A stretch of DNA of 48,339 nt from Nitrospiria bacterium. GTDB lineage: Bacteria; Nitrospirota; Nitrospiria; JACQBZ01. Under the pieces are notes generated by a model, which saw nothing but the letters and a program-made list of their open reading frames with translations, did no database searches and was not told the origin of the DNA. This document shows positions 42,795-48,339 of the stretch, one piece after another. The stretch lies in NCBI GenBank assembly GCA_035517655.1, contig DATIYJ010000052.1:1-48339 (forward strand), read 5' to 3'. How positions within the stretch are numbered: position 1 is the stretch's first letter; each line of letters opens with the position of its first letter. The position numbers and the translations under genes were made by a program.

Positions 42795-44513
42795 ATGGGG
42801 ATACCGCTTCGGGTATTGGTCGTTGAGGATTCGGAGGAAGATGCCTCGTTGCTTGTAACGGAATTGCAGCGCGGCGGATATGACGTCACGTTTGAACGGG
42901 TCGATACATCTACGGCGATGGTGGTCGCTCTGAATAAACAAACCTGGGATATTGTCTTCGCCGACTACACCATGCCCAACTTTAGCGGGGCCGAGGCGTT
43001 GGCGCACGTGAAGGAGAGGGAACTTGAGGTCCCGTTCATCTTCGTGTCCGGGACGATGGGGGAAGAGACGGCGGTGGAGGCGATGAAATCCGGCGCGCAG
43101 GATTACATCATGAAAAACAATCTGAAACGATTGCTGCCCACCGTGGAACTGCAGCTGCACACGGCGGCGGTTCGGCGGGAGCGCAGACGGGCGGATGAGG
43201 CGGTCCATTACCTGGCCTATCACGACGTCCTGACCGACCTTCCGAACCGAAACGTGTTTTACGACCGCATGCAACAGGCCATCCTGACCGGCTACCGCGA
43301 ACGAAAGCCGCTGGCCCTGCTGCTGTTGGACCTGAATCGATTCAAGGAAGTCAACGACACCTTCGGCCATCATTGCGCCGACCTTCTCCTGCGGCAAATC
43401 GGGCCGCGCTTGCGACGATGCCTGCGCGAATCCGACACCGTGGCCCGGATGGGGGGTGATGAGTTTGCGATTCTTCTTCCGAACACCCACGTGGAAGGCG
43501 CCAGCCTGACCGCGCGGAAGATCCTAAAGACGCTCGAAGCTCCCTTCCTGTTGGGCGAGGCGACGATTGAGGTGGGCGTGAGCATCGGGATCGCGCTCCA
43601 TCCCGATCACGGTGAAGAGGCGGATGTTCTCTACCAGCGGGCGGACATGGCGATGTACGTGACCAAGCAGGCGGGCGGCGGGTATGCGGTCTATGTTCCG
43701 GAACATGAGCAGCAGAGCCCCCGACGACTGATGCTCACGTCAAAATTGCGCCACGCGATCGAGTATGGAGAACTAAGCATGCACTATCAGCCCCAGTTGA
43801 GCCTCGGGTCGAACCGGATCATTGGCGTGGAGGCCCTGTCGCGCTGGCTGCATCCGGATCTGGGCGCGATCCCGCCGGACCAGTTCATTCCCCTGGCGGA
43901 GCAGACCGGATTGATCAAACCCTTCACGCAATGGGTGCTCAAAACCGTCGGCCGTCAACACGAGGAATGGAAGGAGGCGGGCATGACCCTCCCCATTTCC
44001 GTCAACCTGTCGGCGAGGAATATGCAGGAAACGCAGCTGCCGGATCAGATTTCCGAACTGGTTCAGACCGGCGGCATCCTGCCCGGTCTGCTGGGATTCG
44101 AGCTGACGGAAAGCATGATCATGGCCAACCCGATGCGTGCGATGCAGATTCTCGGACGTCTGAACACCATGGGCATTCCCCTTTCCATCGACGATTTCGG
44201 CACGGGTTACTCATCATTGGGATACCTCAAAAAACTGCCGGTGAAGACGATCAAAATCGACAAATCGTTTATTGTGGACCGGGTCGAGAATCAGGACGAC
44301 TCGGTGATCGTGAAGTCGATCATCAATATGGGCCATAGTCTGGGACTCGAGGTCATCGCCGAAGGAGTGGAGGATCAACACACGCAGGATCGTCTGGCAA
44401 GCCTCGGCTGCGACGCGGTTCAGGGCTATCACATCAGCTGGCCTCTTCCGTCCGGTGAGATGACCTCTTGGCTGAAAGAATCGCCGTGGGGTTTTAAAGG
44501 AGGCGCCGCGTAA
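42795..44513 (+). CDS. Response regulator with GGDEF and EAL domains
   Basis: 572 aa. Receiver domain 1-120 with Asp57; GGDEF domain about 138-305, motif GGDEF 220-224 intact, and an inhibitory site RESD at 211-214 five residues before it; EAL domain about 315-565 with EAL 346-348, DDFGTGYSS and KIDKSF. Both synthesis and breakdown of cyclic di-GMP are therefore possible, with product inhibition of synthesis. AAGGAG (42782-42787) sets the start. It is followed at 44.7 kb by a PAS histidine kinase that could phosphorylate it. Its N- and C-terminal ends are copied in a relic at 46739. Confidence 0.94.
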   Translation: MGIPLRVLVVEDSEEDASLLVTELQRGGYDVTFERVDTSTAMVVALNKQTWDIVFADYTMPNFSGAEALAHVKERELEVPFIFVSGTMGEETAVEAMKSGAQDYIMKNNLKRLLPTVELQLHTAAVRRERRRADEAVHYLAYHDVLTDLPNRNVFYDRMQQAILTGYRERKPLALLLLDLNRFKEVNDTFGHHCADLLLRQIGPRLRRCLRESDTVARMGGDEFAILLPNTHVEGASLTARKILKTLEAPFLLGEATIEVGVSIGIALHPDHGEEADVLYQRADMAMYVTKQAGGGYAVYVPEHEQQSPRRLMLTSKLRHAIEYGELSMHYQPQLSLGSNRIIGVEALSRWLHPDLGAIPPDQFIPLAEQTGLIKPFTQWVLKTVGRQHEEWKEAGMTLPISVNLSARNMQETQLPDQISELVQTGGILPGLLGFELTESMIMANPMRAMQILGRLNTMGIPLSIDDFGTGYSSLGYLKKLPVKTIKIDKSFIVDRVENQDDSVIVKSIINMGHSLGLEVIAEGVEDQHTQDRLASLGCDAVQGYHISWPLPSGEMTSWLKESPWGFKGGAA

Positions 44514-44676: not shown

Positions 44677-44784
44677 GTGACGGATCAAGATCAACCAAAG
44701 ACCCCCCCTCCTTTCGAAGGCATCCTGGAAGCTCTGCCCGATGCCCTTATCACCAAAGAATGTGCGCGAGGCCAGCTTGCTTGA
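44677..44784 (+). pseudogene. Out-of-frame PAS-start relic before the histidine kinase
   Basis: A GTG-led 35-codon frame with GGCAGGAAG (44660-44668) before it reads [15 protein letters not shown], which resembles the first helix of a PAS domain, then stops. The kinase frame starts within it at 44741 (+1 frame) and continues with [20 protein letters not shown], its own first PAS helix. This looks like the trace of a further PAS domain lost by deletion or frameshift. Confidence 0.4.
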
Positions 44785-46240
44785 GCCCAGGTTTCAGGAA
44801 TTATTGGAGTTCATGCCGGATGCCATTGTGATCGTAGATCGAGAGGGCCGGATCGTGCTGGTGAACGCCCAGACCGAGAAACTGTTCGGCTACCGCCGGG
44901 TCGAGTTGCTCGGTCAGACGCTTGAGATGCTGGTTCCTGAACGGTTCCGAGGCGCTCATGCCGGTGAGCGGACCGGCTACTTCGGCGATCCGCGCGTGCG
45001 CCCGATGGAGTCCGGGCTGGAGCTGTACGCGTTACGCAGGGACGGCACGGAATTTCCGGCGGAGATCAGCTTGAGTCCGCTGGAGACGGAGGAAGGCACG
45101 TTGGTGATCAGCGCGATCCGCGACATCACCGAACGCAAACGGGCGGGGGCCAAGTTTCGCGGGTTGGTGGAAGCGGCCCCGGACGCGATCGTGATTGTAA
45201 ACCGGGAGGGCCGCGTCGTCCTGGTAAACGCCCAGACCGAGCGGCTGTTCGGATATGCCCGGGGCGAGCTATTGGGTCAGTCGGTTGAGATGCTGGTTCC
45301 TGAGCGTCTTCAAGAGGTCCATTCGGGCCACCGGACCGGTTACCTGAGCGACCCCCGCGTACGGCCCATGGGAGCGGGACTGGAGTTGTATGGGAAGCGA
45401 AAAGACGGAAGTCAGGTTCCGGTCGAGATCAGTTTAAGTCCTCTGGAAACCGAAGAAGGGATCCTGGCCATCAGCACGATCCGGGACATCACCGAGCGCA
45501 AGCAGGCGGAAAAAGAGATGCGCAAGCTCAATGCCCATCTTGAAGCCGCCAATAAAGAGCTCGAGGCCTTCAGTTATTCCGTCTCCCACGACCTTCGCGC
45601 ACCGCTGCGACATATCCATGGGTTCGTCGAAATGCTCAAAGAACAGGCGAAGGCTCAACTCGATGAGAAAAGCCAGCGCTACATGAACACGATCATGAAC
45701 TCGGCCAAGCGGATGGGCAATTTGATCGACGACCTCCTGGTCTTTTCTCGGATGGGAAAGACCGAGATGCGAATGGAGAAGGTCAATCTCGATCACCTTG
45801 TCCGGGAGACGATTAAAGATCTACGGACAGAAATACAGGGCCGCGAGATCGCGTGGAAGCTCGACAGCCTGCCGGAGGTCTACGGGGATGCGGCCATGCT
45901 GAAGCAGGTCTGGGTCAATCTGATCGACAACGCCGTGAAGTACACCCGTACCCGCGCACGGGCCGAGATCGAGGTCGGGGGCAGACCGGAAGGAGAGGAA
46001 TACGTCTTCTTTGTTCGAGACAACGGCGTTGGATTCGATCCGCAGTATGCCGGAAAACTTTTCGGTGTTTTTCAGCGCCTGCACAATTCGGACGAATTCG
46101 AGGGGACCGGGATCGGGCTGGCCAACGTCCGTCGGATTGTCCTCCGTCATGGGGGACGGACCTGGGCCGAGGGGCGCGTGGACGGCGGCGCCGTCTTTTA
46201 TTTTTCGTTGCCGAACCGGGAGGAGGAGACCGGCAAATGA
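44741..46240 (+). CDS. Histidine kinase with two tandem PAS domains
   Basis: 499 aa, no membrane segment, so a cytoplasmic sensor. PAS1 about 17-133 and PAS2 about 139-255 are near copies ([20 protein letters not shown] and [20 protein letters not shown]), a recent duplication. HisKA with His283 in [18 protein letters not shown], then HATPase: [36 protein letters not shown]. It resembles the kinases of phytochrome-like systems, with no light-binding domain. The stop overlaps the next gene (ATGA), a single-domain regulator, its probable target. Confidence 0.92.
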
Positions 46241-46692
46241 ATGACGTCAAGAACATCTTGCTGGCCGAGGACAATGCGGAAGATGTCGAGATGACCCTGG
46301 GGGCGCTTTCGCAGCACAACCTTGCGAACGATGTGGTCGTGGTGCGGGACGGCGCCGAAGCGTTGGATTATCTTTATTATCGCGGTAAATTTGAGGATCG
46401 TGCGGCCGGAAATCCAGCCGTGATCCTGCTCGACTTAAAAATGCCGAAAGTGAACGGTTTGGAAGTATTAAAAACGATCAAGTCGGATGAGAAACTGAAA
46501 ATGGTCCCGGTGGTGATGCTGACGTCGTCGCGCGAGGAACCCGACCTGATCGAGAGTTACAAACTGGGCGCGAATGCCTTTGTGGTCAAGCCGGTGGACT
46601 TTCAGGAGTTCATCGAGGCGGTCAAGCGCCTCGGCATTTTCTGGGCATTGATGAACGAGCCGCCGCCCGGGAGCGTGAAAAAAACGAAGTAG
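46237..46692 (+). CDS. Single-domain response regulator (CheY/Rcp1-like)
   Basis: 151 aa. [18 protein letters not shown] (acidic pocket), [16 protein letters not shown] with the phosphoacceptor Asp, [10 protein letters not shown] and [11 protein letters not shown]. The start ATG 46237 overlaps the kinase stop; the longer frame from 45853 is not used. It resembles Rcp1-type regulators that follow PAS or phytochrome kinases and relay phosphate to another protein. No output domain. Confidence 0.92.
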
Positions 46693-46738: not shown

Positions 46739-46939
46739 ATGGACAAACCTCTTCGCGCATTAATCGTCGCGGATTCGGTGGAGGACGCTGATCTGTTGCT
46801 GGAGGAGCTTCGGCGCGGCGGCTGCGACCCGGCCTACAAACAGATACATGCCGCCGAGACGATGACGGCCAATGATCTGACCCGATGGCTGCACGAGTCG
46901 CCGTGGGGATTGATGAAAATCGGAAGAGGAGTGGAATAG
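46739..46939 (+). pseudogene. Deletion fusion of a second REC-GGDEF-EAL gene
   Basis: 66 codons. Residues 1-43 (MDKPLRALIVADSVEDADLL onward) match the first part of the receiver in the 42795 gene (MGIPLRVLVVEDSEEDASLL), while residues 45-57 (NDLTRWLHESPWG) match its last residues (GEMTSWLKESPWG). About 500 codons between the two are missing. The receiver has lost its Asp and most of its fold, so it is a scar, though still an open frame. Its last bases supply the ribosome site of the next gene. Confidence 0.75.
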
Positions 46940-46940
46940 A

Positions 46941-48339
46941 ATGGTCCCATCGGTTCCCGAGCGGTACCCTTCCCACCGGCGCTGGGCGTCTCTGTCCGCA
47001 TATGTTGTTTCCGCTGTCGGGTGCCTCGCGCTCGTCGGCTGGACGTTCGACATCGCGCTTCTCAGAAGCGTTCACCCCGGCTTCGTTGCGATGAATCCGA
47101 CGACCGCGCTGGCCTTCATCCTGTCCGGCGCGGCGCTCCGAATCTCGGTCCTGCAAACGACGGAACGGCGGATCCGTCTCCTGGGACGGGTTTGCGGTCT
47201 TGCGGTCGGTCTTTTGGGATTTCTGCGGCTTTGTGAATATCTGTTCGGTTGGGACTTGGGGGTGAACGTTCTGTTGTTGAAAGAACAGGTCCTGGCCCTG
47301 TCGCCTCCGAATCGGATGGCGGCGACGACGGCGCTGACTTTTCTGCTGCTAGGTTTCGCCTTCATCGTTCAAGATGCCGAATCCGGGGGCGGCCGGCGGC
47401 TTGCCGAGCCGTTGATTCTCCTTTCAGCGTTTCTTTCCCTGATCGCGGTCATCGGCTATATCTACCAAAACAAATACTTTTACGATCTCACGATGGCGTT
47501 GCATACCGCCCTGACCCTTCTCGTGCTCTGCTCCGGGCTTCTTTGCGCTCGGCCTGATTACGGATTCATGAAGATCGTCTTCAGCGAGAGGTTGGGCGGG
47601 GTTTTCGCGCGCCGCCTTTTCCCCGCCGCCGTCGCTCTGCCGCTTATTCTCGACGTTATGAAGTTGGAAGGACAGCGGGCCGGATGGTACGACGTGGAGA
47701 CGGGGTCGGCCCTGCTTACGGCCCTGCGGATCGTCATTTTAGTCGGTTTCATCTGGTGGACTTCGATCTCACTCGATCGTATCGACGCTGAACGGCGGTC
47801 CAATGAGGAAAAGCTGCGTGAAAGCAGTGAGCGCATTCAACTCCTGCTTGATTCCACCGCGGAAGCCATCTATGGGATAAACCTTCAGGGATTCTGCACG
47901 TTCTGCAACGCCTCCAGCCTCCGTCTTTTGGGTTATTCGACCGCCGCTGAACTGATCGGCAAGAACATGCATAACCTGGTGCACCATTCCAAGCCCGATG
48001 GATCTCCATACCCCCTGGAGGAATGCAAATTATACAAAGCCTTTCGGGCGGGAGAAGAGAGTCAACACGGAGACGAGGTTCTCTGGCACGCCGGCGGAAG
48101 CTCTTTTCCAATCGAATATTGGTCGTATCCGGTGCGACAGAACGGGGTGACGATCGGTTCTGTCGTGGCCTTTATCGACATCACCGAGCGTAAACGGACC
48201 GAGAATGAGATGAGGGGGACGAACTCGAAACTGACCGCCTTGGTCGATGAGCTTGAAGCGCGCAAACGGGAGATGAGCCTCCTGAACGAAATGGGCAATC
48301 TGCTCCAGACCTGCCGCAGCTTGCAAGAGGCCAATGACG
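46941..48339 (+). CDS. Membrane sensor protein with PAS and start of GAF domain, 3' truncated
   Basis: 466 codons without a stop to the window edge. ATG 46941 has GAGGAG (46926-46931) 9 nt before it. About eight hydrophobic segments occupy residues 20-290 (for example VVSAVGCLALVGWTF, ALTFLLLGFAFIV, LLSAFLSLIAVIGYIYQ). A coiled segment leads to a PAS domain about 295-420 (LLLDSTAEAIYGINLQG ... VVAFIDITERKRTENE), then MSLLNEMGNLLQTCRSLQEA, the usual lead-in to a GAF domain. The output domain lies outside the window; a diguanylate cyclase or histidine kinase is likely from the context. Confidence 0.85.
   Translation, partial: MVPSVPERYPSHRRWASLSAYVVSAVGCLALVGWTFDIALLRSVHPGFVAMNPTTALAFILSGAALRISVLQTTERRIRLLGRVCGLAVGLLGFLRLCEYLFGWDLGVNVLLLKEQVLALSPPNRMAATTALTFLLLGFAFIVQDAESGGGRRLAEPLILLSAFLSLIAVIGYIYQNKYFYDLTMALHTALTLLVLCSGLLCARPDYGFMKIVFSERLGGVFARRLFPAAVALPLILDVMKLEGQRAGWYDVETGSALLTALRIVILVGFIWWTSISLDRIDAERRSNEEKLRESSERIQLLLDSTAEAIYGINLQGFCTFCNASSLRLLGYSTAAELIGKNMHNLVHHSKPDGSPYPLEECKLYKAFRAGEESQHGDEVLWHAGGSSFPIEYWSYPVRQNGVTIGSVVAFIDITERKRTENEMRGTNSKLTALVDELEARKREMSLLNEMGNLLQTCRSLQEAND

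Follow-up and report, generated by a model that had tools for sequence, protein, structure and literature searches.

The 66-codon open reading frame at 46739–46939 is very probably a pseudogene remnant of a REC-(PAS)-GGDEF-EAL gene, the middle of which would have been lost by an in-frame deletion. Both ends of such a gene were found in the frame in their proper order, an intact gene was found at the corresponding place in relatives, and no conserved short gene was found. The window, i.e., the whole stretch of DNA analysed, is the entire contig C52 (48,339 bases) of a 2.65-Mb genome that is assembled in 71 contigs and is 99.3% complete. Its last 5.5 kb carries, all on the plus strand, a REC-GGDEF-EAL gene, a kinase gene, a regulator gene, the 66-codon frame and a membrane-sensor gene (Table 1).

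Table 1. Features at the end of the window and within the 66-codon frame.
Feature	Position	Strand	Basis
Intact REC-GGDEF-EAL gene, not the parent of the remnant (separate clade)	42795–44513	+	Pfam, tree, DNA matches
PAS-PAS histidine kinase, first gene of the triad	44741–46240	+	Pfam; 75% identical in G012 (residues 127–496)
Single-domain response regulator (Pfam Response_reg), just upstream of the scar	46240–46692	+	81% identical in G023, 77% in G012
Putative remnant of 66 codons, a REC start fused to an EAL tail	46739–46939	+	Translation and DNA matches
Codons 1–43, receiver domain start	46739–46867	+	DNA match to 18/18 intact genes compared, best E 7.5e-18
Junction zone ATGACGGCC, codons 42–44 (ATG ACG GCC)	46862–46870	+	Comparison with the G002 gene
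Codons 44–66 and stop, EAL protein end (NDLTRWLHESPWGL...)	46868–46939	+	86% over 44 nt to the C60 gene of the same genome, from its codon 553, E 4e-10
AGAGGAG, likely Shine-Dalgarno sequence of the 46941 gene, inside the scar	46925–46931	+	Duplex −8.6 kcal/mol
Gene of a membrane sensor with an N-terminal membrane part and PAS, incomplete at the contig end	46941–48339	+	Seems to read into contig C48 as GAF-GGDEF (putative join)

The two ends of the frame

The reading from the ATG at 46739 was open as far as the TAG at 46937–46939 (66 aa), with neither an internal stop nor a frameshift. For DNA comparison the frame was cut at codon 43/44, and the left 129 nt and the right 72 nt were compared with 18 intact REC-...-EAL genes of our choice, a subset of the 31 REC-...-EAL genes or gene parts used in the tree described below. 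The left piece matched the first codons of all 18 genes (E 7.5e-18 to 6.6e-8), and the right piece matched the last codons of 14 of them at E ≤ 0.01 (best 4e-10). In a random control with 1000 trials each from positions 1–42000 of the window, any match at E ≤ 0.01 was obtained for 36 of the 129-mers and 26 of the 72-mers, with best E values of 4.6e-5 and 2.2e-5, respectively. The proposal in the initial annotation that a receiver start (codons 1–43) is joined to an EAL end (codons 44–66) was thus borne out by two DNA matches far beyond the random level.

A gene on contig C60 of the same genome (L037, 11081–12799; 572 aa) matched the left piece at E 5e-15 and the right piece at E 4e-10 at the DNA level, with the two matches in the proper order. 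Measured on this gene, codons 44 to 552 had no counterpart in the frame, which corresponds to 509 codons lost in frame and agrees with the single in-frame deletion of about 500 codons that had been proposed. The loss would be larger than 509 codons if the parent gene contained PAS domains, as does the REC-PAS-PAS-GGDEF-EAL gene of G042 (825 aa).

The ends had been described as like those of the gene at 42795–44513, and alignment at the DNA level did show matches at both of them (E 6.6e-8 and 6.4e-5). This gene was the weakest of the 18 on the left piece and was tied for tenth to twelfth among the 14 matching genes on the right piece; it thus resembles the parent gene, but is not close to it. 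Its protein was 45% identical to residues 1–44 of the remnant (20/44, E 5e-11), and a second alignment placed residues 9–58 against its C-terminal end (E 7e-8). Within this second alignment, residues 9–43 look like a chance likeness, with residues 44–58 as the proper tail match.

The junction

The junction, previously placed between residues 43 and 45, was located at codons 42–44. Another position, at RGGCD/LGCD (shared GGCTGCGAC), was prompted by sliding the second protein alignment and was rejected, because the left match reaches nt 127–129 of 129 and the right match starts at codon 44. Compared with the gene that follows the regulator in genome G002, the junction ATGACGGCC was identical at 8 of 9 positions to the REC site (ATGACGGCG) and at 8 of 9 to the EAL site (ATGCCGGCC), in the same reading phase. 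The two G002 sites agreed with each other at 7 of 9 positions, a level reached by 0.6% of the in-phase site pairs of that gene, and agreement between the two breakpoint sites in the other 17 intact genes was 2 to 6 of 9. In the search for short direct repeats at the junction, the 18 relatives thus gave an agreement of 2 to 7 of 9. A striking repeat at the breakpoints appeared only in the G002 gene among the 18, and both this repeat and the lost length are reconstructed from relatives, as the parent gene itself was not found.

Slippage at a short same-phase repeat is plausible. In the third gene of the locus, one deletion would have fused codon 43 to about codon 553, most likely through replication slippage or end-joining at a short imperfect repeat (ATG(A/C)CGGC), and the common phase of the two repeat copies would account for the in-frame junction.

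Gene order in relatives

Judged by gene order, the PAS kinase, the single-domain regulator and a REC-(PAS)-GGDEF-EAL gene constitute a recurring three-gene unit. A total of 32 loci were read (15 from one search and 17 from another), and an intact REC-...-GGDEF-EAL gene was present after the regulator at 11 of them, namely in G002, G005, G006, G009, G012, G023 (C19), G042 (C2), G044, G069, G001 and on contig C60 of the source genome. For three of these 11 loci the kinase lies beyond the contig end (G006), has only its end present (G009) or is split over two frames (G005). At the remaining loci another gene was found in this place, no such regulator was present, or the third gene was deleted (G036) or frameshifted (G050). 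Some regulators of the same kind were followed by REC-PAS-kinase genes or by something else, i.e., the third gene varies.

Genome G002, which belongs to the same genus as the source, showed the order REC-GGDEF-EAL, kinase, regulator, REC-GGDEF-EAL, and the same order was found in G012 with two extra genes between. The window shows the gene order of these two genomes, in which the third gene is intact (570 and 577 aa). The earlier suggestion that a second REC-GGDEF-EAL gene once flanked the kinase and regulator is in line with these loci, and REC-GGDEF-EAL genes on both sides of the pair look like the older arrangement. The ancestral locus would have consisted of a PAS histidine kinase, a single-domain response regulator and a REC-(PAS)-GGDEF-EAL enzyme.

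The sensor gene at 46941 was unsuitable as a synteny marker: its N-terminal 280 residues gave no match at E ≤ 1e-15 in other genomes of its own family, though G002 does hold a piece of a similar gene. Positions 48310–48339 of the window and the end of contig C48 (L105, 8164–7224, minus strand) share a 3-nt overlap (ACG), across which a GAF frame continues unbroken and is followed by GGDEF. Contigs C52 and C48 thus appear to adjoin, and the 46941 gene together with C48 would encode a 778-aa sensor-PAS-GAF-GGDEF protein. Upstream of the kinase, a PAS-like start opens at GTG 44677 (44677–44790) and leaves the reading frame of the kinase body near 44755. A first PAS domain may thus be largely lost from the kinase; the likeness to a G050 kinase in this part is short (13 residues, E 0.2).

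Origin of the lost gene

The GGDEF-EAL parts of 31 genes were used for a tree, from which the remnant was left out for its short length; it was placed by similarity only. The 42795 gene grouped with G005_C103 and G012_b (100/98), and the genes found after a regulator lay elsewhere in the tree. The latter did not form one clade: nine labelled rows required six label changes, at least three of them forced by starred branches, and 39 of 500 shufflings of the labels gave a value as low as six (the genes of G069, G001 and the C60 contig, which also follow a regulator, were in the tree without a label). The third place of the unit would thus have been filled from several lineages. By similarity the remnant goes with genes after a regulator (AETM.., DLTRWL-ESPWGL) and not with the group of the 42795 gene (AMVVALNKQ; EMTSW or ELTAW); at E ≤ 0.01 the right piece matched neither G005_C103 nor G012_b. 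A duplication of the whole block, as had been supposed, was not supported: no second kinase-regulator copy was found in the cluster of the window, and since the 42795 gene falls in a separate clade, no recent block duplication is shown.

Other remnants

In G036, which belongs to another family, an EAL tail (AWLRESHWGRGTAVK) alone remains between the regulator and the next gene (L078, 7221–7364). The left flank of the break was closest to G050 and the right flank to G042; on either side of the break, G042 reads GCCGCGTG and GCCGCTG. The loss of the third gene in G036 is nearly complete and independent. The G036 remnant has no gene start, and it is followed by a gene on the opposite strand. In the source genome, another orphan EAL tail was found on contig C48 (L105, 7124–7165; C48:32123–32164, minus strand), after the stop of the gene that seems to continue the 46941 sensor gene, and showed 95% DNA identity over 42 nt to the tail of the remnant. 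The sensor gene therefore seems to be bracketed by two EAL tails, the second lying one gene downstream across the contig break.

Further remnants were found in clusters of this type in G002 and G003. In a 133-aa frame of G002 (L039, 5080–5481), the start of a membrane sensor (about 74 residues, 49% identical to the 46941 gene) runs in frame into the final residues of a regulator. This frame directly precedes an intact REC-GGDEF-EAL gene; the genes closest to the latter in the source genome and in G001 are preceded by a kinase and a complete regulator. In G003 (L040, 11694–12026), a GGDEF-EAL piece lacks the middle of the EAL by an in-frame deletion and carries a stop codon in its tail. Of these remnants, only that of G036 occupies the position of the scar within the triad. 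A search with an EAL tail in 15 genomes recovered the scar and the tails on C48 and in G003, with the G036 tail unlisted at E ≤ 1; it is no census, and other short-frame matches (e.g., in G005, G036, G042, G044, and G050) lie outside the count of remnants.

Likely ribosome-binding site and translation of the downstream gene

The likely Shine-Dalgarno sequence of the 46941 gene lies within the scar (Table 1), and 5.3% of 2000 random window positions were equally strong. The start of the remnant itself has a weak Shine-Dalgarno sequence (−3.6 kcal/mol), equalled by 41% of 2000 random positions. The simplest view is that of a dead gene with a living ribosome-binding site for the 46941 gene, and the role that remains would be that of the last approximately 20 nt.

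Alternatively, the remnant may be kept as a short coupling frame, in which ribosomes would end at the TAG and restart at 46941; in-frame remnants would then be favoured for keeping the downstream gene of the operon translated and shielding it from polarity. The stop and the next start are one base apart, the Shine-Dalgarno sequence for 46941 within the remnant is fair, and the two other junctions that could be judged (the G002 sensor-regulator fusion and the G003 EAL deletion) are in frame as well. However, the weak initiation site of the remnant argues against coupling. Furthermore, the case in the window was noticed for being in frame, which leaves two cases and a chance of 1 in 9; and the stop in the tail of the G003 remnant, the missing start in G036 and the opposite strand of the gene after it do not fit this role. 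We consider such a coupling function unlikely.

Assembly and short homologues

An assembly artefact, by which two REC-GGDEF-EAL genes were merged or the middle of one gene was skipped, has to be considered for an assembly in 71 contigs with several paralogues, the more so as the contig ends 1.4 kb downstream. Against this, the best other DNA matches within the genome were of limited length or identity: on the tail, 95% over 42 nt and 85% over 52 nt; on the REC side, 73% over 84 nt; all others at most 56 nt. This seems too little for collapse by an assembler. An intact copy of the parent was not found in this genome either, and an artefact is accordingly judged very unlikely.

Still slightly less probable is that the frame encodes a functional microprotein, a partial receiver domain that binds a kinase or another receiver. 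The frame is open, and its 43 receiver residues showed a mean identity of 53% to the 18 intact receiver starts. However, a full-length match over residues 1–66 was found only in the genome itself among 269 genomes of the class (E ≤ 1e-7), and no short homologue was found among these 269 genomes or among 58 genomes at E ≤ 1e-3, both sets including the source genome; a scan of genome contigs that needs exact 8-residue words likewise gave none. The frames covered by this result do not extend to some short receiver-start or tail frames of other genomes, e.g., the 60-aa frame G046:C337 at the edge of a contig, or to frames of 337 aa in G080 and G081. The homologues conserved as a short gene in relatives that would have spoken against a scar were thus not seen. 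Short receiver-start frames in G050 (L033, L010, and L080) were rejected as homologues, as they are frameshifted long genes. Several receiver domains are frameshifted in this three-contig genome, two at a similar point, perhaps through assembly indels.

The 66-aa frame had no Pfam match at E ≤ 0.1. The catalytic and phospho-acceptor parts are absent from it, as judged from Pfam and from codons 44–552 of the C60 gene; the left piece ends before what we take to be the position of the phospho-acceptor Asp in the receiver family. Codon 11 is Ala in the remnant and acidic in the intact genes (E in 17/18, D in 1/18). As the left piece lacks the phospho-acceptor and covers less than half of a receiver domain, and as the right piece is a short tail beyond the EAL core, neither synthesis nor breakdown of c-di-GMP would be expected. 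The left piece was off consensus at 18 of 43 residues, compared to 8–15 in the 18 intact genes, and its mismatch share at codon positions 1 and 2 (0.47) was within the intact range (mean 0.37, sd 0.07, z 1.4; G003_a 0.50). The excess of off-consensus residues is compatible with relaxed constraint, with a codon-position bias like that of intact genes. No weight was given to the near-invariant columns, 4 of 21 of which hold a letter unseen in intact genes, because intact genes cannot fail this comparison by construction.

Finally, that a short frame merely resembles both ends by chance is hardly credible: weak matches come easily, as residues 9–43 illustrate by aligning also to an EAL end, but the best matches of both pieces lie far below the best random E values and occur in the right order and at the right genomic place.

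Meaning and comparison with known systems

The scar is probably ordinary gene decay, ordinary in kind, and its recurrence is mildly interesting; the independent loss in G036 and the other remnants nearby would be the only notable part. It is conceivable, and in our opinion doubtful, that the arrays of this lineage are repeatedly pruned by in-phase joining of the start of one gene to the end of the same or a neighbouring gene, at conserved codon-phase motifs that act as slippage sites, with the remnants selected for preserving the translation of the operon; in-frame remnants would then be kept because they carry the ribosome-binding site of the next gene. With the pseudogene reading, a paralogue-rich c-di-GMP cluster would lose members through single deletions, after which two fused ends or just a tail remain; intact relatives are available for comparison. 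Such remnants make an older gene order readable, and short frames labelled 'hypothetical' next to clusters of this kind may represent scars rather than genes.

Among the papers listed in a literature search were general ones on pseudogenes and on c-di-GMP and none on this cluster. As in prokaryotic pseudogenes in general (PMC522871), a disabled copy of a known gene lies beside intact neighbours; the scar differs in its in-frame fusion of the two ends, for which a short same-phase repeat may have served, and in a tail that also provides the likely ribosome-binding site for the gene downstream. Truncated genes of c-di-GMP turnover offer another parallel: for ycgG in E. coli, distinct deletions strike one gene in related strains (PMC10333796), similar to the separate deletions found here in the same c-di-GMP gene among relatives. 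In ycgG the enzyme part survives and works, whereas in the scar both enzymatic domains are gone.
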